A stretch of 64,000 nt of DNA from Devosia riboflavina (GTDB lineage: Bacteria; Pseudomonadota; Alphaproteobacteria; Rhizobiales; Devosiaceae): positions 62,001 through 126,000 of the forward strand of contig NZ_JQGC01000003.1 in NCBI RefSeq assembly GCF_000743575.1, written 5' to 3'. A program made the position numbers and the translations under genes. The notes below the pieces were generated by a model. That model saw only the letters and a program-made list of their open reading frames with translations, was not told the origin of the DNA and did not search any database. This document shows, one piece after another, positions 44,236 through 53,735 of the stretch; position 1 is the first letter of the stretch, and every line of letters begins with the position of its first letter.

Positions 44236-45390
44236 CTAAACCTTCCCCTCCATCGCCCGATCGAAAATCGCCAGCGCCCGCTCCTTGGTCAGTTCCACCG
44301 GGTTGCCCCCCGCCGTGGGATCGACAATCGCCATGTCCCCGATCTTGTCCCGCTGCTCGCCATCGACCTTGAAATCCCGCAGCGTGTGCGGCACTTCCAA
44401 TCGCAGCCGCAGCCCGATCACCGCATGCAGGAACGCATCAAAGCTCGGCGCCAGCCCGATATAGGCCGCCAGCCGCGCGATTTTTCCTTCAATGGCCGAC
44501 TTATTCGCCTGCAGCACATAGGGCATGAAGACGGCATTGGTCATGCCGTGATGCGTATCATAGAGCGCGCCCACCGGATGGCTCAGCGCATGAATCGCCC
44601 CGAGCCCCTTCTGAAACGCCGTCGCCCCCATGGCCGCCGCGCTCATCATGTGGCCGCGCGCCTCGATATCACCGGGATTGGCCGCAACCTTGGGCAGGTT
44701 TTCGAACACCAGCCGAATACCCTCAACCGCGATGCCGTCAGCCAGCGGATGATAGCCCGGCGCACAATAGGCCTCCAGACAGTGCGCCAGCGCATCCATG
44801 CCCGTGCCCACGGTGATGAACTTTGGCATACCCACCGTCAGTTCGGGATCGGCAATGACAACCTTGGGCATCATCAGCGGATGGAAAATCACCTTCTTAG
44901 TATGGGTCGTCTCGTCGGTAATGACGCCCGCGCGCCCCACTTCCGAGCCCGTCCCTGCCGTTGTCGGCACGGCAACGATCGGGAAAATCCCTTTGGGATC
45001 GGCGCGCGTCCACCAGTCGCCGATATCCTCAAAGTCCCACATCGGCCGCGTCTGTCCAGCCATGAAGGCAATCACCTTGGCGGTATCGAGCCCGGACCCA
45101 CCGCCAAAGGCGACGACCCCATCATAGCCGCCCTCGCGCAAAACTTTTATGCCCGCCTCGACATTGGCCGAGATCGGGTTCGGTTTCACGTCTGAGAAAA
45201 GCCCGACCTCGATGCCCCCGGCCTTGAGATCGGCCAATACCTTTTGCGTCACCGGCAGCGCCGCGAGCCCCGCATCGGTCACCAGCAGCGGCTTTTTTAT
45301 CCCCGCCACTTTCAACGCATCGGGCAATTCGGCAATACGCCCCGCCCCGAAGCGGACGGCGGTCGGATAATTCCAGTTGGCTTTGGTCAT
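44236..45390 (-). CDS. Iron-containing alcohol dehydrogenase
   Basis: A 384-residue group III alcohol dehydrogenase. The NAD loop GGGSGLDTAK is at 96-105, PTTAGTGSEV at 142-151, and the iron ligands are D199 and H203 (GMDALAHCLEAY), H267 (GAIHALSHPVG) and H281 (THHGMTN). It should convert a primary alcohol to an aldehyde. GAGGCCAG precedes the ATG. It is the last gene of a minus-strand set with aldehyde dehydrogenase, a glutamine-synthetase-like ligase and a permease; family G repeats lie in two of the gaps. I infer that it oxidises the hydroxyl group of a gamma-glutamylated amino alcohol. Confidence 0.92.
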   Translation of the reverse strand: MTKANWNYPTAVRFGAGRIAELPDALKVAGIKKPLLVTDAGLAALPVTQKVLADLKAGGIEVGLFSDVKPNPISANVEAGIKVLREGGYDGVVAFGGGSGLDTAKVIAFMAGQTRPMWDFEDIGDWWTRADPKGIFPIVAVPTTAGTGSEVGRAGVITDETTHTKKVIFHPLMMPKVVIADPELTVGMPKFITVGTGMDALAHCLEAYCAPGYHPLADGIAVEGIRLVFENLPKVAANPGDIEARGHMMSAAAMGATAFQKGLGAIHALSHPVGALYDTHHGMTNAVFMPYVLQANKSAIEGKIARLAAYIGLAPSFDAFLHAVIGLRLRLEVPHTLRDFKVDGEQRDKIGDMAIVDPTAGGNPVELTKERALAIFDRAMEGKV

Positions 45391-45422
45391 TCTGGCCTCG
45401 TATCCCTGACTAACTCTCCGTC

Positions 45423-45493
45423 GTCATTGCCGGGCTTGTCCCGGCAATCCATCTCACCTCCGCATGGACCACCGGGACAAGCCCCGGTGGTGA
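45423..45493. repeat. Palindromic repeat, family G
   Basis: GTCATTGCCGGGCTTGTCCC opens and GGGACAAGCCCCGGTGGTGAC-type sequence closes. Copies lie at 47005-47075 and 60606-60674. A fragment of family F (GCCTCGAACCACGAGGGC) follows at about 45520-45540. Confidence 0.85.
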
Positions 45494-45546
45494 CGATAGA
45501 ACGGAGAGAAATCCTCACTTGTGCCTCGAACCACGAGGGCCTGGCA

Positions 45547-46929
45547 CTAGACCCGCCGGAGATGAAAACTCTTGGGCTGGGTCAAATTGTGGTAGCCAAT
45601 CTCGCTGAGGCCACCGCCCTTGCCGGTATCCTTCACCCCGGTCCAGACGAGCGCAGGGTCGAGATAGTCGCAACGATTGGCGAAAACCGTACCGGTCTCG
45701 ACCTCGCCGCCGATCCGCCCGGCCGCCGCGATGTCCTCGGTCCAGATCGACGCCGTCAGCCCATAGGGGCTGTCGTTCATCAAGGTAATCGCCTCAGCGT
45801 CGTCTGATACCTTCATGATGCCCACGACCGGCCCAAAGCTCTCCTCGCGCATGACGCTCATCTGGTGATTGACGCCCGTCAGCACTTCCGGCGGCAGATA
45901 AGGCGAGCCCGCCACATCGCGCGCATCGCCCCAGTTGAGATGCCGCTTCGCGCCCCCGCGCACGGCCTCTTCCGTCTGCCCGCGCACATGGTCGGCAAAA
46001 CTGCCCCGTGCCATGGGCCCGACAATGGTTGCAGGATCGAGCGGATCGCCCAGGGTCCAGCCGCGCGCCTGTTCGACAAAGCGCTCGACAAAGCCGTCAT
46101 AGACCTCCGCATGCACATAGATGCGCTCGACCCCGCAGCACGATTGCCCCGAATTGAAAAAGCTGCCGTCGACAAGGTTTTCCGCGGCAAAATCGAGATT
46201 GGCATCGGCTCGGACATAGGCAGGGTCCTTGCCACCGAGCTCAAGGCCCAAAGTGGCAAAAGTCCCGGCCGCTGCCCTCTCGATCCGCCGCCCGCCTTCC
46301 ACCGATCCGGTGAAATTGATGTGGTCGATCTCGCCCGAGCCGACCAGTTTTTCCGTATCCGCATGGCCGAGCACAAGGTTCTGGAAAATCCCCTCCGGCA
46401 ACCCTCCGGCCTTCGCCGCCGCCGAAAAGCGCTCGCCCGCCAGCAGCGTCTGGCTCGCATGTTTCAGCAGCACCGCATTGCCCGCCACCAGCGCCGGCAC
46501 GATGGAATTGACCGCTGTAAGAAACGGATAATTCCAGGGCGCAATGACCAGCACCACGCCCAGCGGTTCATGCGAAATATAGCGCACAAAACCCTCTTTC
46601 GCAGGCCGCATCGACGGCGCCAGGGTCGTCTCGGCAATATCGAGCATATGCCGGCTGCGTTCCTCGACCCCACGCTTTTCCGCCCCAAAGCGGATCGGCC
46701 GGCCCATCTGCCAGGCGAGTTCGGGCACGATTTCGTCGTTCATTGTAAGCAGGGCATCGACCATGCGCCCCACCGCCGCGACGCGTTCGGCCACCGCTAC
46801 CGTGCGCCAGGCCCGCTGCGCTGCCTTGGCCCGGCTCACGGCCGCAGCGATAGCAGCGCCATCCAGCGTCTGCCGCTCGGCAAACACTTTTCCGTTCACG
46901 GGAGAAATGATCTGGACCGTCTCGGTCAT
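45547..46929 (-). CDS. Aldehyde dehydrogenase
   Basis: A 460-residue NAD(P)-dependent aldehyde dehydrogenase. Conserved parts are APWNYPF at 130-136, LLKHAS with K156, the general base E230 in ELGGKDPAYV, and the catalytic cysteine C264 in NSGQSCCG. EESFGPVVGI and PYGLTAS lie towards the end. A longer frame runs back into a palindromic repeat; the ATG at 46929 begins the conserved protein. It lies between the ligase and the alcohol dehydrogenase, so it probably oxidises the aldehyde made by the latter. Confidence 0.94.
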   Translation of the reverse strand: MTETVQIISPVNGKVFAERQTLDGAAIAAAVSRAKAAQRAWRTVAVAERVAAVGRMVDALLTMNDEIVPELAWQMGRPIRFGAEKRGVEERSRHMLDIAETTLAPSMRPAKEGFVRYISHEPLGVVLVIAPWNYPFLTAVNSIVPALVAGNAVLLKHASQTLLAGERFSAAAKAGGLPEGIFQNLVLGHADTEKLVGSGEIDHINFTGSVEGGRRIERAAAGTFATLGLELGGKDPAYVRADANLDFAAENLVDGSFFNSGQSCCGVERIYVHAEVYDGFVERFVEQARGWTLGDPLDPATIVGPMARGSFADHVRGQTEEAVRGGAKRHLNWGDARDVAGSPYLPPEVLTGVNHQMSVMREESFGPVVGIMKVSDDAEAITLMNDSPYGLTASIWTEDIAAAGRIGGEVETGTVFANRCDYLDPALVWTGVKDTGKGGGLSEIGYHNLTQPKSFHLRRV

Positions 46930-47004
46930 GCTTTTATTCCGTTCAAACTTTGTATCATTGCCGGGTGGCTCTCGAGAGAGCCCACCAGCTGCCCCCATTC
47001 CTTC

Positions 47005-47075
47005 GTCACTACCGGGCTTGTCCCGGTAGTCCATGCGGAGGCAAGATGGATTGCCGGGACAAGCCCGGCAATGAC
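47005..47075. repeat. Palindromic repeat, family G
   Basis: GTCACTACCGGGCTTGTCCC and GGGACAAGCCCGGCAATGAC flank a short spacer. It lies between the ligase and aldehyde dehydrogenase genes of the catabolic cluster. Confidence 0.87.
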
Positions 47076-47109
47076 GGCGAACGATGGGTGTTGCTGCAAA
47101 CGGACCTCT

Positions 47110-48468
47110 TCAGCTCCGCTCGAACCCGCGTTTGCGCTCCCAGTCGGTCACGCGGCGATCATATTCGAACTGCTCCCAATTGCCCGTGTGCACATAGTGC
47201 TCCACTACCTCGGCCCCAAAAGCCTCGATGAGCATTTTTGAACCCTGCAGTGCTGCCACCGCATCGCGCAGCGTCTTGTGCACCTCGCGCAGTTTTTCGC
47301 CCGAATAGGCATCGCCCGAAAAGGCAGGCTCCAGCACCAGCTTGTCTTCAATGCCCTTCAACCCCGCAGCCAGCAACGCCGCAAAGGCGAGGTATGGATT
47401 GAGATCGGCGCCACCAATCCGGCACTCAACGCGAACACCCCTAGTGTTTTCTCCGCAGAGTCTAAAACCCGCCGTGCGATTATCGCTGCTCCAGATCGCC
47501 TTGGTCGGCGCAAAAGTGCCGACCTGGAAGCGCTTATAAGAGTTGATATAGGGCGCGAGGAAATAGGTGATGTCGCCGGCATAGGTGAGCAGTCCGGCCA
47601 TAAAATGCTTCATCAGCGCCGACATGCCCAGTTCGTCCTTCTTGTCGACAAACTGATTTTTTCCGTCCTTGGCCAGCGACATGTGAATGTGCGCGGAAGA
47701 CCCGGCGAGGTCGTATGCCCACTTGGCCATGAAGGTGACAGCCTTGCCCTGGCCGAAGGCGATTTCCTTGGTGGCGTTCTTGATGACCACATGCCGATCG
47801 GCCATGGTTAGGGCCTCGGCATAGCGCACATTGATCTCTTCCTGGCCCGGGCCCCATTCGCCCTTGGAATTTTCAACCGGAATGCCGGAGGCGTGCAGCT
47901 GATTGCGCAGCGCCCGCATCACCCCTTCTTCCTTGGTCGTCTGGAAGATGTGGTAGTCCTCGATGTAATAGCCGGCGGCGGTCAGGTTCTGATAACCCTT
48001 GTCATGGGCCGAGCGGAACGTCTCGTCGAAGAGATAGAATTCGAGCTCGCTGGCAAAATTGGCCGAAAGCCCCATGGCCTCCAGCCGCGCCAACTGCTTT
48101 TTCAGAATGCTGCGCGGCGCATGCGGAATGGGCTCGTGATGATGGTGATCGACGAGATCGGCCAGCACCAGCGCCGTGCCCTCCAGCCAGGTACACTTCA
48201 TCAATGTGGACAGATCAGGCTTCATGACGAAGTCGCCATAGCCCTTGCCCCAATTGGCGGCCGCATAGCCGGGCACCGGCTCCATGTCGATATCATCGGC
48301 GAGCAGATAATTGCAGCCATGGGTCTCGTCCATGGCGCCATCGAGGAAGAATTCGGCCTGAAACCGCTTACCGATCAGCCGCCCCTGCATATCGGGAAAG
48401 GCAACGAGCACCGTATCTATCCGCCCTTCGGCGACGTCCTTGCGCAGTGTGTCGAGCGAATAGCCCAC
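47110..48468 (-). CDS. Glutamine-synthetase-like gamma-glutamyl-amine ligase
   Basis: A 452-residue member of the glutamine synthetase fold in the PuuA/GlnT/IpuC group, which joins an amine to the gamma-carboxyl of glutamate with ATP. Metal and substrate segments are SELEFYLFD, EWGPGQEEINVRY, AHIHMSL and IWSSDNRTAGFRL. The C-terminus lacks the adenylylation tyrosine loop of housekeeping GlnA. The start is GTG behind GGGAACAAAAAC. Its setting, next to an ethanolamine-type permease and before aldehyde and alcohol dehydrogenases, points to an amino alcohol rather than putrescine as substrate, because PuuB and PuuD are absent (inference). Confidence 0.88.
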   Translation of the reverse strand: MGYSLDTLRKDVAEGRIDTVLVAFPDMQGRLIGKRFQAEFFLDGAMDETHGCNYLLADDIDMEPVPGYAAANWGKGYGDFVMKPDLSTLMKCTWLEGTALVLADLVDHHHHEPIPHAPRSILKKQLARLEAMGLSANFASELEFYLFDETFRSAHDKGYQNLTAAGYYIEDYHIFQTTKEEGVMRALRNQLHASGIPVENSKGEWGPGQEEINVRYAEALTMADRHVVIKNATKEIAFGQGKAVTFMAKWAYDLAGSSAHIHMSLAKDGKNQFVDKKDELGMSALMKHFMAGLLTYAGDITYFLAPYINSYKRFQVGTFAPTKAIWSSDNRTAGFRLCGENTRGVRVECRIGGADLNPYLAFAALLAAGLKGIEDKLVLEPAFSGDAYSGEKLREVHKTLRDAVAALQGSKMLIEAFGAEVVEHYVHTGNWEQFEYDRRVTDWERKRGFERS

Positions 48469-48522
48469 GTTTTTGTTCCCTCTATTTGTCAGCCCGCCGC
48501 GTCATTGGTGCGCGATGGGGTC

Positions 48523-48553
48523 GGGGCGCCGTTCTCCGCGGCGCCCCTTTTTT
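48523..48553. terminator. Strong hairpin between permease and ligase genes
   Basis: GGGGCGCCG (48523-48531) and CGGCGCCCC (48539-48547) pair perfectly around seven bases. The six-T run (48548-48553) is on the plus strand, so for the minus-strand operon it is more likely an mRNA-stabilising or attenuating hairpin just past the permease stop. Confidence 0.6.
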
Positions 48554-48557
48554 ATGG

Positions 48558-50102
48558 TCAGGCCTTTGGCGCGACCGCCGCGGCCACGGCGGCATCGCCG
48601 CGATGCTCAAGCGCGAACTCTTCTTCGGGCGAGAGGATCAGCTTGTGTCGGCCAACGAGCGCGAAATAGACCACGCCCACCGCACACCAGAGGATCACCC
48701 AGATGACGCCCCGGTAAAAATTCGGGTCCTGCAACTGGTAGAACAGCGTCACCGCCGCGATGATGATGGTCAGCACCGCGCCCGGAACGCCCACCGGCGA
48801 GCGGAACGGCCGCTCGATATTGGGCTGGTTACGCCTGAGGATGATGAAGCTCAGCGCCTGCATGATGTAACTCAGCATGGCGCCGAACACGGCCATATTG
48901 AGCAGTACCGAGCCGATGATGTCGTCGCCAAGCTGCGTTTCGCCCGGTCCGCCGCCACCATTGACGAACCAGATCGCCAGCATGACGACGAGGCCGAGCG
49001 TCGCGCCCGAAATCATCGCCAGATGCGGCGTCTTGTACTTGTCATGCGTCACCGAGAGAGCCGACGGGAAATAGCCGGCGCGGCTCAGCGAATAGACCTG
49101 GCGGCCCTGCGCATAAAGGATGGTGTGGAACGAGGCGATAAGACCGATCAGCGCCACGATGCCGAAGAGCGGCGCAGCAGCATCGCCATAAATAGCGCGG
49201 ATACCGTCCAGAGCCGGTTCAAGCGAAGACCCCAGCGCAAAGCTGCCGACACCCGGAATGGAGGGGTTGAGCAGCACAATGAGGAAGGCCGAAAGCAGCA
49301 GCGTGCAGAAGCCGAGGAGAATACCGCGCGGCAGATCCCGCTTGGGATCGACGGATTCCTCAGCCGCCAGCGGCACCTGCTCGATGGCAAGGAAGAGCCA
49401 GACGGCGAAGGGCAGCGTCGCTAAAACGCCCTGAAACCCAAACGGGAACCACGATCCATTGCCCTCGGGCAATTCGACGGCGCCACCCTCGGGCCCGACA
49501 CCGATATTGAGCGCCCAGCGGCCAAAATCGATATTGGGGAAGGCACTGACCCAGAAGAAGGCAAGGCCCGCCAGCGAAATCAGGGTAACGACCAGCGTCA
49601 CCTTATAGGAAAGCGCCACGCCATAGATGTTGAGCGCGAGGAAGATGATGAAGAACACCACCCAGAGGATGGGGTAATAAGCTGTGTCCAGCCCGGTGAT
49701 CGAGCCGAAATAGCCCGAGATAAAGGTACAGATCACCGCCGGGGTGAGCACATATTCGACGTTCTCGAAGAGCCCCGTGATGAAACCGCCCCATGGCCCC
49801 ATCGACGTACGCGCGAAAGAATAGGCCGCGCCCGTATGCGGCAGCGCCGGGCTCATTTCCGCGATCGAGGAAACGAGGCCCAGATACATGATGGCGATGA
49901 TGGCGGCGGCCACGACCATGCCGCCCCAGCCGCCGGTCATGAAGCCAAAATTCCAGCCGGAAAAATGGCCTGAAATCACGGCGCCCACGCCAAGCGCCCA
50001 AAGCGACCAGATGCCCGCATAGCGCTGCAGCCCTCGCTTTTCGAAATACGACTTGTCTCGTGTCGCGTAAGCGACACTTCCCACCTTCTTGGTATCAGCC
50101 AT
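48558..50102 (-). CDS. APC-family permease, ethanolamine-permease-like
   Basis: A 514-residue inner-membrane transporter with 12 predicted segments. The first two helices read GVGAVISGHFSGWNFGF then GGWGGMVVAAAI, and LPHTGAAYSFARTSMGPWGG follows; this pattern matches the ethanolamine permease branch of the amino acid-polyamine-organocation family. The helix pair around FLAIEQVPLAAEESVDPKRDLPRG is also typical. It probably imports a small amine or amino alcohol. GGGGACAGGGACC precedes the ATG. It lies 42 bp behind the amidohydrolase and 89 bp before the ligase gene. Confidence 0.88.
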   Translation of the reverse strand: MADTKKVGSVAYATRDKSYFEKRGLQRYAGIWSLWALGVGAVISGHFSGWNFGFMTGGWGGMVVAAAIIAIMYLGLVSSIAEMSPALPHTGAAYSFARTSMGPWGGFITGLFENVEYVLTPAVICTFISGYFGSITGLDTAYYPILWVVFFIIFLALNIYGVALSYKVTLVVTLISLAGLAFFWVSAFPNIDFGRWALNIGVGPEGGAVELPEGNGSWFPFGFQGVLATLPFAVWLFLAIEQVPLAAEESVDPKRDLPRGILLGFCTLLLSAFLIVLLNPSIPGVGSFALGSSLEPALDGIRAIYGDAAAPLFGIVALIGLIASFHTILYAQGRQVYSLSRAGYFPSALSVTHDKYKTPHLAMISGATLGLVVMLAIWFVNGGGGPGETQLGDDIIGSVLLNMAVFGAMLSYIMQALSFIILRRNQPNIERPFRSPVGVPGAVLTIIIAAVTLFYQLQDPNFYRGVIWVILWCAVGVVYFALVGRHKLILSPEEEFALEHRGDAAVAAAVAPKA

Positions 50103-50144
50103 GGTCCCTGTCCCCTTGGTTATGCTGAACCCTGTGTGTCCCGC

Positions 50145-50915
50145 CTAATGCGTCCGGGCCTGTTTTCGCGCCTCGCGCGCGTGCTGCAGGCTCCGCGCGA
50201 CAAGGCCAGCCCATTGGCTGACCCCGTCCGGCGAGAGAATTTCGTCGTTACGAATTTCGATCATGGTGGCTTCGAGCCCGCGCCCGTCGCCGTGCTTTTC
50301 AAGCGTTAGGGTCACGCCATTGAGGGCGGCATAGGGCTCGTTCCAGCCGATATTGAGGTCCGGCCGCTCCGCCGCCATGGCATCGCGAAAAGCCTTGGTA
50401 AAGCGCTCGTCCCGCCCATGGATGACACCGATGGGCCAGGGCCGCGCCTTGCCGAGGAAGACCGGGGTAAAGGAATGCATGCAGACCACGATTGTCTCGA
50501 CGCCCGCATGGCGGCGCGCTTCGAGCAGCATGTCGATCGCGCCGTGAAAGGGTCGATGATACTGGGCGATACGATAGTCCCGTTCTTCGGGGGTGATATT
50601 TTCATTGGCCGCAATGCGCGTGCGTTCGGAGAGCGTCCAGATCAGGTCCGGCGCATCGAGGGCGCGATTGCAGTCGATGATAAGGCGCGAGACGGTGGAT
50701 TCCACCAGCGGCGCGTCGAGCAGGTCCGAGAGCACCCGGCTCACCGCCAGCGCACCGGGATCCCAGGCGATATGGCTCAGCCTTTCGCTCGGCGTCAGTC
50801 CGAGATCGCCATAGCGTTCGGGAATGCGGTTGGAAGCATGGTCGCAAAGAATGACGAAGGGCGACGCCCCCCGCGCATTGGTCACCAGAACCGATTTTTG
50901 CGCCTCGCTGTCCAT
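50145..50915 (-). CDS. N-formylglutamate amidohydrolase-like enzyme
   Basis: A 256-residue metallohydrolase of the FGase (HutG-like) family. The family segments are VILCDHASNRIPERYG near 22-37, HIAWDPGALAV near 48-58, SRLIIDCNRALDAPDLI near 76-92 and VCMHSFTPVF near 143-152. No other histidine-utilisation genes are present. As first gene of an operon with permease and gamma-glutamyl ligase, it may instead release glutamate from a gamma-glutamyl amide (inference). AGAGGGAAT precedes the ATG. It is divergent from the RpiR regulator across a 92-bp promoter region. Confidence 0.88.
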   Translation of the reverse strand: MDSEAQKSVLVTNARGASPFVILCDHASNRIPERYGDLGLTPSERLSHIAWDPGALAVSRVLSDLLDAPLVESTVSRLIIDCNRALDAPDLIWTLSERTRIAANENITPEERDYRIAQYHRPFHGAIDMLLEARRHAGVETIVVCMHSFTPVFLGKARPWPIGVIHGRDERFTKAFRDAMAAERPDLNIGWNEPYAALNGVTLTLEKHGDGRGLEATMIEIRNDEILSPDGVSQWAGLVARSLQHAREARKQARTH

Positions 50916-50946
50916 ATTCCCTCTATAGGCAAGCGATCAATTTCTG

Positions 50947-50978
50947 TAACAGTAGTTCCACAAACGAAACTTCTGTCA
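50947..50978. promoter_or_regulatory. Inverted-repeat operator between FGase and RpiR genes
   Basis: TAACAGTAGTTCC (50947-50959) and GAAACTTCTGTCA (50966-50978) are inverted repeats that match at 10 of 13 positions around a six-base spacer. The site is central in the 92-bp divergent gap, 30 bp from each start, so one regulator can control both directions. The RpiR protein encoded next door is the obvious candidate. Confidence 0.7.
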
Positions 50979-51007
50979 ATATTGAAACGCAGGGTTCAGG
51001 AGGAGAA

Positions 51008-51841
51008 ATGGAGGGCAAGACCGTCGCCGCACGGATTCACGACCTCGACGAGCAGTTGACGTCAGCAGGGAGACGGGCGGCGCGCGGGCTTTTGGGCAAT
51101 TATCCGCTGCTCGGCCTTGCCCCCGTCGCCGAGTTCGCCGCAGGTGCCGATGTCAGTGCCGCCACCATTGTGCGCTTCGTCGCCCAATTGGGCTTCAAAT
51201 CCTATCCCGATTTCCAGCGCGCCCTGCGCGAGGAGCTAGAGCAGCGCTCGAAATCGCCGTTGCAGCGCGGCGCCACGCCCGCAGACCATTCGGGCGAAGC
51301 CCCCTATCTCTCGGCCTTCCTCGCCCAATCGGCCCACCGCATGGAAGAGTCGGCGGCGCTAATCTCACCCGGCGAATTCGAAACCGTCTGCCGGCGCCTC
51401 ACCGAAACCAAGCGCAATTGCCACCTGGCCGGCGGCCGTTTTACCGATTTCCTCGCGGGCTATCTCGAAGCCCACCTGCGCCTCATCCGCCCCGGCATTC
51501 GCCGCCTCGATGGACGCCCGGCCACCAGTGCCGACCAGCTCATCGACGTCAAACCCGGCGATCTCGCGATCCTCTTCGACGTCCGCCGCTATGATCCGGC
51601 CATGCTGGAGGTGGCGCGCACCCTCTCGCGCCGCAAGGCCCATATCGTCCTCATCACCGACGAATGGCTCAGCCCCATCGCCCGCCACGCCCGCTATTGC
51701 CTCCCCTGCCGCACAGAAACCGGCCGCACCTGGGACGCCAATGCGGTGCTGCTGGGCCTGGTCGAAGCGATCATCGCGCGGGTGACGGAGCTGGGCTGGC
51801 AGACCGCCAGCGAACGCATTGGGGCGCTGGAAGGGGAGTAA
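51008..51841 (+). CDS. RpiR/MurR family transcriptional regulator
   Basis: A 277-residue regulator. The N-terminal HTH_6 domain covers about residues 10-80 (VAEFAAGADVSAATIVRFVAQLGF then YPDFQRALREEL). The C-terminal SIS domain (about 115-250) includes HLAGGRFTDFLAGYL and VKPGDLAILFDVRRYDP. SIS domains of this group usually bind phosphosugars, but RpiR proteins also control amino acid and amine catabolism. The ATG lies behind AGGAGGAG. It is divergent from the permease-ligase cluster and shares its operator, so it is probably its regulator. Confidence 0.92.
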   Translation: MEGKTVAARIHDLDEQLTSAGRRAARGLLGNYPLLGLAPVAEFAAGADVSAATIVRFVAQLGFKSYPDFQRALREELEQRSKSPLQRGATPADHSGEAPYLSAFLAQSAHRMEESAALISPGEFETVCRRLTETKRNCHLAGGRFTDFLAGYLEAHLRLIRPGIRRLDGRPATSADQLIDVKPGDLAILFDVRRYDPAMLEVARTLSRRKAHIVLITDEWLSPIARHARYCLPCRTETGRTWDANAVLLGLVEAIIARVTELGWQTASERIGALEGE

Positions 51842-51871: not shown

Positions 51872-51937
51872 GTCATTCCCGCGAAAGCAGGAATCTCTCC
51901 TTCGGCACAATGAGATTCCCGCTTTCGTGGGAATGAC
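51872..51937. repeat. Palindromic repeat, family A
   Basis: GTCATTCCCGCGAAAGCAGG opens and CGCTTTCGTGGGAATGAC closes. It lies between the RpiR and amidohydrolase genes. Confidence 0.85.
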
Positions 51938-51988
51938 GCGGTGGTTTGTGCATGCATTTTTCTGCTAGGAGACCCGAGGAGGACGACC

Positions 51989-52819
51989 ATGCGCATAGTA
52001 GACACCCACCTGCACCTCATCTATCCCGACCGGCTTTCCTATCCCTGGCTCGGCAATGCTCCGGCCATCAACAAGCCGTGGAGTGTGGACGCCTATTGGG
52101 CCGAGGCCAAGCCGCTGGGCATCGAGGCGGCGCTCCACATGGAGGTCGATGTCGCCGAGGCCGATATTTTGGCCGAGACCGAATTCGTCCTCGGCCTCCC
52201 CGGCATCATTGGCGCCATCGCCGCCTGCCGTCCCGAAAATCCCGATTTTCCCGCCCAGCTCGAAAAGCTGCTCGCGGTTGGCAAAGGCCGGGTAAAAGGC
52301 CTGCGCCGCATTCTTCACGAAGTGCCCGATGATGTCAGCGCGCCACAACTCTTCGCCGACAATCTGCGCCTTCTCGCCCGACACGGTCTCACCTTCGACC
52401 TCTGCCTCCGCGCCGACCAACTCCATCTGGGCGTCGCGCTGGCGCAAAAAGCCCCGGAAGTGACCTTCATCCTCGACCATTGCGGCAATCCCGACATCAA
52501 TAGCATCGGCCTTGATCCATGGCGGCAAAGCCTGCGCGAGATCGCCGCCCTCCCCAATGTCATGGGCAAGGTTTCTGGCATCGTGAACCACTGCGACCCG
52601 GATTGGACCCCTGAAACCCTCCGCCCCTATGTCGAGCATGTCATCGACAGCTTTGGCTGGGATCGCGTCGTCTGGGGTTCGGATCATCCGGTCGTGACCC
52701 TCACCGGCTCGCTCACAAGCTGGGTCGAAGCCGCGCGCGAAATCGTTGCCGACGAGACGCAGGAAAATCAGGAAAAGCTGTTTTATCGCAATGCCGAGCG
52801 CATCTATCGCCTCGGCTAA
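51989..52819 (+). CDS. Amidohydrolase family protein (lactonase-like, COG3618)
   Basis: A 276-residue TIM-barrel metal hydrolase. It starts MRIVDTHLHLIYPDRLSYPW, with the metal-binding D-x-H-x-H pattern at 5-9; TFILDHCGNPD and VVWGSDHPVVTLTG carry the later histidine and aspartate. Relatives open sugar lactones (L-rhamnono- or L-fucono-lactonase) or hydrolyse 2-pyrone-4,6-dicarboxylate. GAGGAGGACGACC precedes the ATG. A TIM-barrel isomerase follows 82 bp downstream, which suggests a sugar-acid pathway; the substrate is open. Confidence 0.88.
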   Translation: MRIVDTHLHLIYPDRLSYPWLGNAPAINKPWSVDAYWAEAKPLGIEAALHMEVDVAEADILAETEFVLGLPGIIGAIAACRPENPDFPAQLEKLLAVGKGRVKGLRRILHEVPDDVSAPQLFADNLRLLARHGLTFDLCLRADQLHLGVALAQKAPEVTFILDHCGNPDINSIGLDPWRQSLREIAALPNVMGKVSGIVNHCDPDWTPETLRPYVEHVIDSFGWDRVVWGSDHPVVTLTGSLTSWVEAAREIVADETQENQEKLFYRNAERIYRLG

Positions 52820-52901
52820 ACGGTTACAGATATAACAAATTGTATTGCAGCCCCTCCGTGCACATGTGATTCTGCGGCCGGAGGAATTGGGGAGAGACTT
52901 T

Positions 52902-53735
52902 ATGGCCCAGAGTGCTGACCGCATCGCGGTCTCCACCTGGTCGTTGCATCGCCTTTTGGGCACGACCTATCCGCATGATCTGACGACCACCGCCATCGGC
53001 GCCGGAGAAGACACATATGGCGAAGGTAGCGAGTCCTTGCTCGGCCTGCCTTCGGTGCTGGCCAATCACGGCTATCACCGCGTGGAAATCGTCTCCTTCC
53101 ACATGCGCAGCCGCGATTCCATTTATCTCGCCGAGCTCAAAGACCAGCTCGCCCGCGCCGAGGTGACCCTGCAAACCCTGCTGATCGATGCCGGCGACAT
53201 CACCCATCCCGAGCACGGCGCGCGCGATGAAGCCTGGATTGCCGGCTGGCTCGAGGTCGCCAATGAGCTTGGTGCAGAAAATGCCCGCGTCATTGCCGGC
53301 AAGCAAAAACCCACCAGGGCCAATATCGACCACTCCGTCGCAGCCCTCAAACGCCTCGCCGCCGGCAATGCCGGATCATCGGTGCGGCTGGTGACTGAAA
53401 ACTGGTTCGACCTGCTCTCGACCCCGGAAACCGTGCACGAAGTGCTCGACCGGCTCGAAGGCCAGGTTGGCCTTTTGGGCGATTTCGGCAATTGGGGCGG
53501 CGACAGCAAATACGAAGATCTCGCTTCGATCTTCGCTCGCGCCGAGCTCTGCCACGCCAAGGCGAGCTTTGCCCATGGCCAGCTCGACGAGGCCGATTAT
53601 GGCGCCTGCGTGGGTGCGGCCGAAGAAGCCGGCTACAAGGGCCCCTATACGCTGATCTTCGATGCCGACCAGCCGCATGAATGGGCGGGCCTCGCGCTCG
53701 AGCGCGATTTCATCCTCTCGCTCATCGAGGTCTGA
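52902..53735 (+). CDS. Sugar phosphate isomerase/epimerase-like TIM-barrel protein
   Basis: A 277-residue member of the xylose-isomerase-like TIM-barrel group. Strand ends carry likely metal ligands: YHRVEIVSFH near 60, ENWFDLLS near 168, LLGDFGNWGGD near 191 and LCHAKASF near 215, with LIFDADQPHEW near the end. Enzymes of this group isomerise or epimerise keto sugars, or act as endonuclease IV relatives; no DNA-repair marks are seen. GGGGAGAG precedes the ATG at 52902. It follows an amidohydrolase and ends four bases before a diguanylate cyclase gene. Confidence 0.85.
   Translation: MAQSADRIAVSTWSLHRLLGTTYPHDLTTTAIGAGEDTYGEGSESLLGLPSVLANHGYHRVEIVSFHMRSRDSIYLAELKDQLARAEVTLQTLLIDAGDITHPEHGARDEAWIAGWLEVANELGAENARVIAGKQKPTRANIDHSVAALKRLAAGNAGSSVRLVTENWFDLLSTPETVHEVLDRLEGQVGLLGDFGNWGGDSKYEDLASIFARAELCHAKASFAHGQLDEADYGACVGAAEEAGYKGPYTLIFDADQPHEWAGLALERDFILSLIEV

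Follow-up and report, generated by a model that had tools for sequence, protein, structure and literature searches.

A candidate operon for ethanolamine use through γ-glutamylation in Devosia riboflavina and the variation of its transporter

Do six adjoining genes of Devosia riboflavina, located in a stretch of 64,000 nucleotides (contig NZ_JQGC01000003.1, positions 62,001 to 126,000; the whole stretch is referred to as the window), form one pathway and, if so, for which substrate? The locus spans positions 44236-51841: five minus-strand genes, which encode in turn a PF05013 hydrolase, an APC permease, a glutamine synthetase (GS)-like ligase, an aldehyde dehydrogenase (ALDH), and an iron-containing alcohol dehydrogenase (Fe-ADH), together with a divergent gene for an RpiR/SIS regulator. 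Pfam gathering scores were passed by all six proteins, while none reached any NCBIfam cut-off (for ALDH, among the best 25 of 44 matches), and family names taken at face value are therefore misleading. We conclude, with a probability of approximately 0.9, that this is an operon for ethanolamine as a nitrogen source via γ-glutamylation. The basis observed here consists of the genes, their order, their conservation, and the scores of the ligase and hydrolase, which lie below the cut-offs that define a true GS and a HutG, respectively; from these, we infer the identity of the pathway, its substrate, the reactions, and the role of the regulator.

In the proposed pathway, ethanolamine would be imported by the APC permease, and its amine would be joined by the GS-like ligase, with ATP, to the side-chain carboxylate of glutamate, giving γ-glutamylethanolamide. 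Fe-ADH would then convert the hydroxyl group to the aldehyde, ALDH would convert the aldehyde to γ-glutamylglycine, and the PF05013 hydrolase would cleave the latter to glutamate and glycine; since this cleavage frees glutamate, glutamate would be recycled. The pathway is already published in other bacteria, and the locus is an ordinary further member.

Ligase and hydrolase

The ligase differed from a true GS (GlnA) in both its score, below the equivalog cut-off, and its lack of the catalytic-flap Glu. Its NCBIfam scores were 242.1 bits for GlnA (cut-off 429.15), 242.3 bits for GS III (469.6), and 191 bits for the PuuA-type model NF045547 (650). The canonical GS motif GYEAP was GTFAP in the window ligase, in which Phe319 replaces the Glu that we take to be Glu327 of the catalytic flap in the usual GS numbering. 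Phe was found at this position in all 81 rows (80 related loci and the window), and GTFAP was also present in the PDB entries 11zs and 5dm3 (the latter presumably the C. salexigens ligase), which matched the window protein with E values of 9.7e-201 and 8e-178, respectively. The closest named relative, with 98% identity, was from a Devosia sp. assembly (locus L034). We propose that this protein is an ethanolamine γ-glutamylase.

The hydrolase likewise scored far below N-formylglutamate deformylase, with 25.2 bits against HutG (TIGR02017; cut-off 278.75). The names that Pfam alone would give, namely, a true GS and a HutG-type deformylase of histidine breakdown standing together by chance, thus describe these genes with negligible probability: both cut-offs were missed by far, the flap Glu is replaced throughout, and the linkage is kept across many genera (see below). 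True GS and HutG were both rejected on these curated cut-offs.

The genome holds three PF05013 proteins. A cluster hydrolase model built from 65 sequences (64 loci and the window) gave 436 bits for the window protein, which is among these sequences, and 34 and 7 bits for the two others. His26, Asp81, Asn83, Arg84, His147, and Glu220 were among the residues kept in at least 97% of the 65 proteins, a pattern compatible with a zinc amidohydrolase. The sole solved relative found by sequence search was 2odf (Atu2144; we assume that Atu numbers refer to Agrobacterium tumefaciens strain C58), deposited as a hypothetical protein. Since γ-glutamylglycine is an N-acyl amino acid, as is N-formylglutamate, the family chemistry would not need to change.

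The initial annotation had proposed the same order of γ-glutamyl reactions for an amino alcohol, and regarded a formylglutamate-amidohydrolase-like enzyme as a new final hydrolase. The reaction order agreed with the published ethanolamine pathway and was backed by comparative genomics, whereas the novelty of the hydrolase was lost: a protein of this family (PF05013) was proposed for the final hydrolysis in 2019 (PMC6529630) and tabulated in 2022 (PMC9397018). In Streptomyces coelicolor, GlnA4 (SCO1613) is a γ-glutamylethanolamide synthetase needed for growth with ethanolamine, and SCO1615, of the formylglutamate-amidohydrolase family, is the proposed hydrolase of the last step (PMC6529630). 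By this description, the GlnA4 cluster resembles the window in its GS-like ligase and hydrolase family; however, according to the figure legend, a short-chain dehydrogenase and a glutamine amidotransferase (orf5) also belong to the cluster, whose gene set differs (PMC6529630). A later table assigns SCO1611 to PF00465 and SCO1615 to PF05013 (PMC9397018). A literature search found no paper joining Devosia, ethanolamine, and glutamyl.

Conserved linkage and the likely substrate

Among 136 genomes of the same family, 82 (counted by hand) contained a ligase match of at least 583 bits (at least 58% identity), and one more contained a partial match, while the next matches scored 195 bits. A contig scan gave 506 ligase relatives. 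The 80 best were retained, and every one of these loci was examined; 63 were well covered (at least 4.5 kb on either side of the ligase), with partners counted anywhere in the fetched stretch. The co-occurrence expected in the initial annotation was borne out in these 63 loci: the ligase was accompanied by Fe-ADH in 59, by ALDH and by the PF05013 hydrolase in 55 each, and by RpiR in 40, a number that may be an undercount caused by the tblastn filter. The linkage exceeds chance and is present in many genera. No cluster partner was found in L085, L086, L089, and L091 (the stretch of L091 ends just after the ligase), and in L041 both dehydrogenases are found on the opposite side, separated from the ligase by approximately 8-9 kb.

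Some loci carried additional sequence between the ligase and ALDH genes: approximately 0.9 kb in L045, L049, L051, L057, and L060, with an open reading frame (ORF) in L049, L057, and L060 resembling, by eye, a small helix-turn-helix regulator. An ORF at the same place in L113 (10815-11279) resembled, also by eye, a PIN-domain toxin.

The gene content also bears on a pathway for polyamines or simple amines, similar to Puu or Ipu. The Puu pathway has a GS-like ligase, an ALDH, and a permease, a combination also present here; however, the score of the PuuA-type model given above, the frequency of Fe-ADH among the well-covered loci, and the fact that amine oxidase and class I amidotransferase families were not found among the ten proteins scanned make this pathway highly improbable. 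The low ligase score and the genes present led us to discard a route of the Puu type.

Ethanolamine is the likeliest substrate because related operons with a TRAP transporter in place of the permease carry a binding protein closely resembling Csal_0678 of C. salexigens. The TRAP binding protein that was searched, from L053 (with the same gene order as the window), matched PDB 4uab with an E value of 1.2e-153. This structure is Csal_0678 in complex with ethanolamine, in which the ligand is held by Glu220 (PMC12410723), and ethanolamine is reported to be an unusual TRAP ligand (PMC4646407; PMC5812351). The Glu at 4uab chain position 217, probably the ligand-holding Glu220 if a numbering offset is assumed, was kept in 17/17 TRAP loci (the cut-off fragment L087 was left out). 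The amino alcohol of the initial annotation may thus be narrowed to ethanolamine. EutB (PF06751) of the Eut ethanolamine ammonia-lyase pathway gave no match in the genome of the window, while an Escherichia coli control was positive.

The same chemistry may act on a primary amino alcohol larger than ethanolamine (3-aminopropanol, 4-aminobutanol, or alaninol), yielding β-alanine, γ-aminobutyrate (GABA), or alanine. The best NCBIfam match of Fe-ADH was 4-hydroxybutyrate dehydrogenase (333.6 of 500 bits), and those of ALDH, among its best 25 of 44 matches, were succinic semialdehyde and aminobutyraldehyde enzymes, all under the cut-off; the score of the permease, below the ethanolamine-permease cut-off, points in the same direction. 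On the other hand, relatives of the ethanolamine binder are encoded in TRAP forms of the operon, and these are interleaved with the APC forms on the ligase tree; we regard a larger substrate as unlikely. Oxidation of a secondary alcohol, such as isopropanolamine, yields a ketone, which is not a substrate for ALDH.

Ethanolamine γ-glutamylation has been named step by step in the operon MED193_10021-10056 of Phaeobacter sp. MED193 (PMC10132767). Five of its proteins increase on phosphorylethanolamine, and the dissociation constant (Kd) of EtoX for ethanolamine is 7.9 μM (PMC10132767). The order of RpiR, γ-glutamylglycine amidohydrolase, transporter, ligase, ALDH, and ADH is identical to that in the window, a likeness by name and order only; in contrast to the TRAP transporter EtoVWX of Phaeobacter, the window has an APC permease. 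All four enzyme families reported from C. salexigens (PF00120, PF00465, PF00171, and PF05013; PMC9397018, Table 2) are together in the window, again with an APC permease instead of a TRAP binder (Csal_0678). Agrobacterium loci carry an ethanolamine-permease-like protein at the same position, together with a hydrolase and a regulator approximately 41 and 33% identical to those of the window, respectively. The operon of A. tumefaciens B6 (L110) has the same permease type (74% identity) and a hydrolase very similar to Atu2144 (2odf, E value of 1.4e-157). Since Agrobacterium loci carry the operon with the APC permease type of the window, we do not treat TRAP EtoVWX as pathway-defining.

Several points weigh against assignment to ethanolamine. 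Published accounts disagree on the status of the C. salexigens route: according to PMC10132767, Vetting et al. demonstrated in 2015 (doi 10.1021/bi501388y) an ethanolamine pathway of closely related genes for both C. salexigens and A. tumefaciens C58, while that of C. salexigens is an in silico prediction according to PMC6529630, and its steps are called proposed in PMC9397018. Phaeobacter EtoX also rises without any phosphate source (PMC10132767). The window transporter is not EtoVWX and remains below the ethanolamine-permease cut-off, and the families of Fe-ADH and ALDH suit other small alcohols as well. The hydrolase gene directly adjoins the ligase gene, with no transporter between them, in L040, L051, L092, and L109. 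The PF05013 gene was absent from 8 of the 63 well-covered loci (L082, L083, L085, L086, L089, L096, L101, and L106), and the cluster model did not find it among ORFs of at least 120 amino acids in the 16 of the 80 loci without the gene; therefore, hydrolysis in these loci would have to be provided from elsewhere or by another enzyme.

Exchange of the transporter

The window permease scored 338.8 bits against the ethanolamine permease model TIGR00908 (cut-off 381.75; next listed family, 125.7), and a close relative of EtoX was not found in the same genome (best match, 27% identity). In the 81 rows, the slot between the hydrolase and ligase contained an EatP-like APC permease in 38, a TRAP transporter in 17, a second type of APC permease in 10, and no transporter in 15, and was cut off in 1. 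The second APC type, as scanned in L044, L061, and L102, was nearest to TIGR00907, under its cut-off.

On the ligase tree, the transporter label needed 18 changes over the 65 labelled rows (the 15 rows without a transporter and the one cut off were omitted), with TRAP interleaved with the APC forms. This number is approximate because the tree was a quick one, supported by the Shimodaira-Hasegawa-like approximate likelihood ratio test (SH-aLRT) alone, and left 27 of its 78 inner branches open. When only the starred branches are counted and each type is set against the remaining rows, the minimum is 9 changes for EatP, 8 for TRAP, and 4 for the second APC type. Approximately 18 changes suggested that the importer was exchanged while the enzymes kept together, and this repeated exchange within one conserved operon is the mildly new part of the present results. 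Since the enzymes stay while uptake swaps among an EatP-like APC, a TIGR00907-like APC, and the TRAP transporter EtoVWX, we are inclined to regard both APC types, including that of the window, as dedicated ethanolamine importers, albeit with considerably less confidence than the pathway itself.

Gene layout, intergenic elements and significance

The features of the locus are listed in Table 1; the range and strands given in the initial annotation agreed with ORF positions and Pfam matches. The ORF of ALDH covers 45547-47034 on the minus strand, and the shorter gene was selected by the start MTETVQ common to L038.

Table 1. Features of the candidate ethanolamine operon in the window.
Feature	Position	Strand	Match or remark
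Fe-ADH, proposed γ-glutamylethanolamide dehydrogenase	44236-45390	-	PF00465, 174.5 bits; PF25137, 144.1 bits
ALDH, proposed γ-glutamyl-aminoacetaldehyde dehydrogenase	45547-46929 (likely gene)	-	PF00171, 388 bits
Dispersed palindromic element in the ALDH-ligase intergenic region	47012-47068		One of 19 exact genome copies
GS-like ligase, proposed ethanolamine γ-glutamylase	47110-48468	-	PF00120, 329.6 bits
APC permease, ethanolamine-permease-like, proposed ethanolamine uptake	48558-50102	-	PF13520, 121.5 bits
PF05013 hydrolase, proposed γ-glutamylglycine amidohydrolase	50145-50915	-	PF05013, 141.8 bits
Divergent promoter region with TTTCAATATTGACA element	50916-51007		Operator or -35 box, uncertain
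MurR/RpiR-family (RpiR/SIS) regulator, probably of the operon	51008-51841	+	PF01418, 34.7 bits; PF01380, 48.9 bits

The RpiR gene was also divergent from the hydrolase gene in related loci, and its product probably controls the operon. In a search for a common operator, the 12-mer core of the TTTCAATATTGACA element (TTTCA..ATTGACA) was found in 29 of 46 intergenic regions (the window and 45 loci) when both strands were considered and no more than 2 mismatches allowed, a count for which the chance level was not computed; the element overlaps a possible -35 box. The palindromic element CCGGGCTTGTCCCGG..CCGGGACAAGCCCGG at 47012-47068 is dispersed in the genome and not pathway-specific, with the 19 exact copies of Table 1 and 0 for a control pattern.

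A relative of the latter element is located at approximately 45426-45495, between operon genes, and a second, different palindromic element (of the TCATTCCCGCGAAAGC.. type) at approximately 51872-51945, in the intergenic region that follows the regulator. The region 51941-53735 encodes a PF04909 amidohydrolase (94 of 400 bits for the fuconolactonase model), followed by a protein of 296 amino acids without a Pfam or NCBIfam match. Among the 80 loci, this pair was present in L034-L038 only, and the 296-amino-acid protein also in L040.

The six genes may now be named by likely function in Devosia and its relatives, beyond the labels of GS and N-formylglutamate amidohydrolase. If both APC types are ethanolamine importers, this would be, to our knowledge, a new assignment for the TIGR00907-like type. 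Ethanolamine is a piece of membrane lipids, and the operon would thus be tied to the recycling of membrane-lipid nitrogen.

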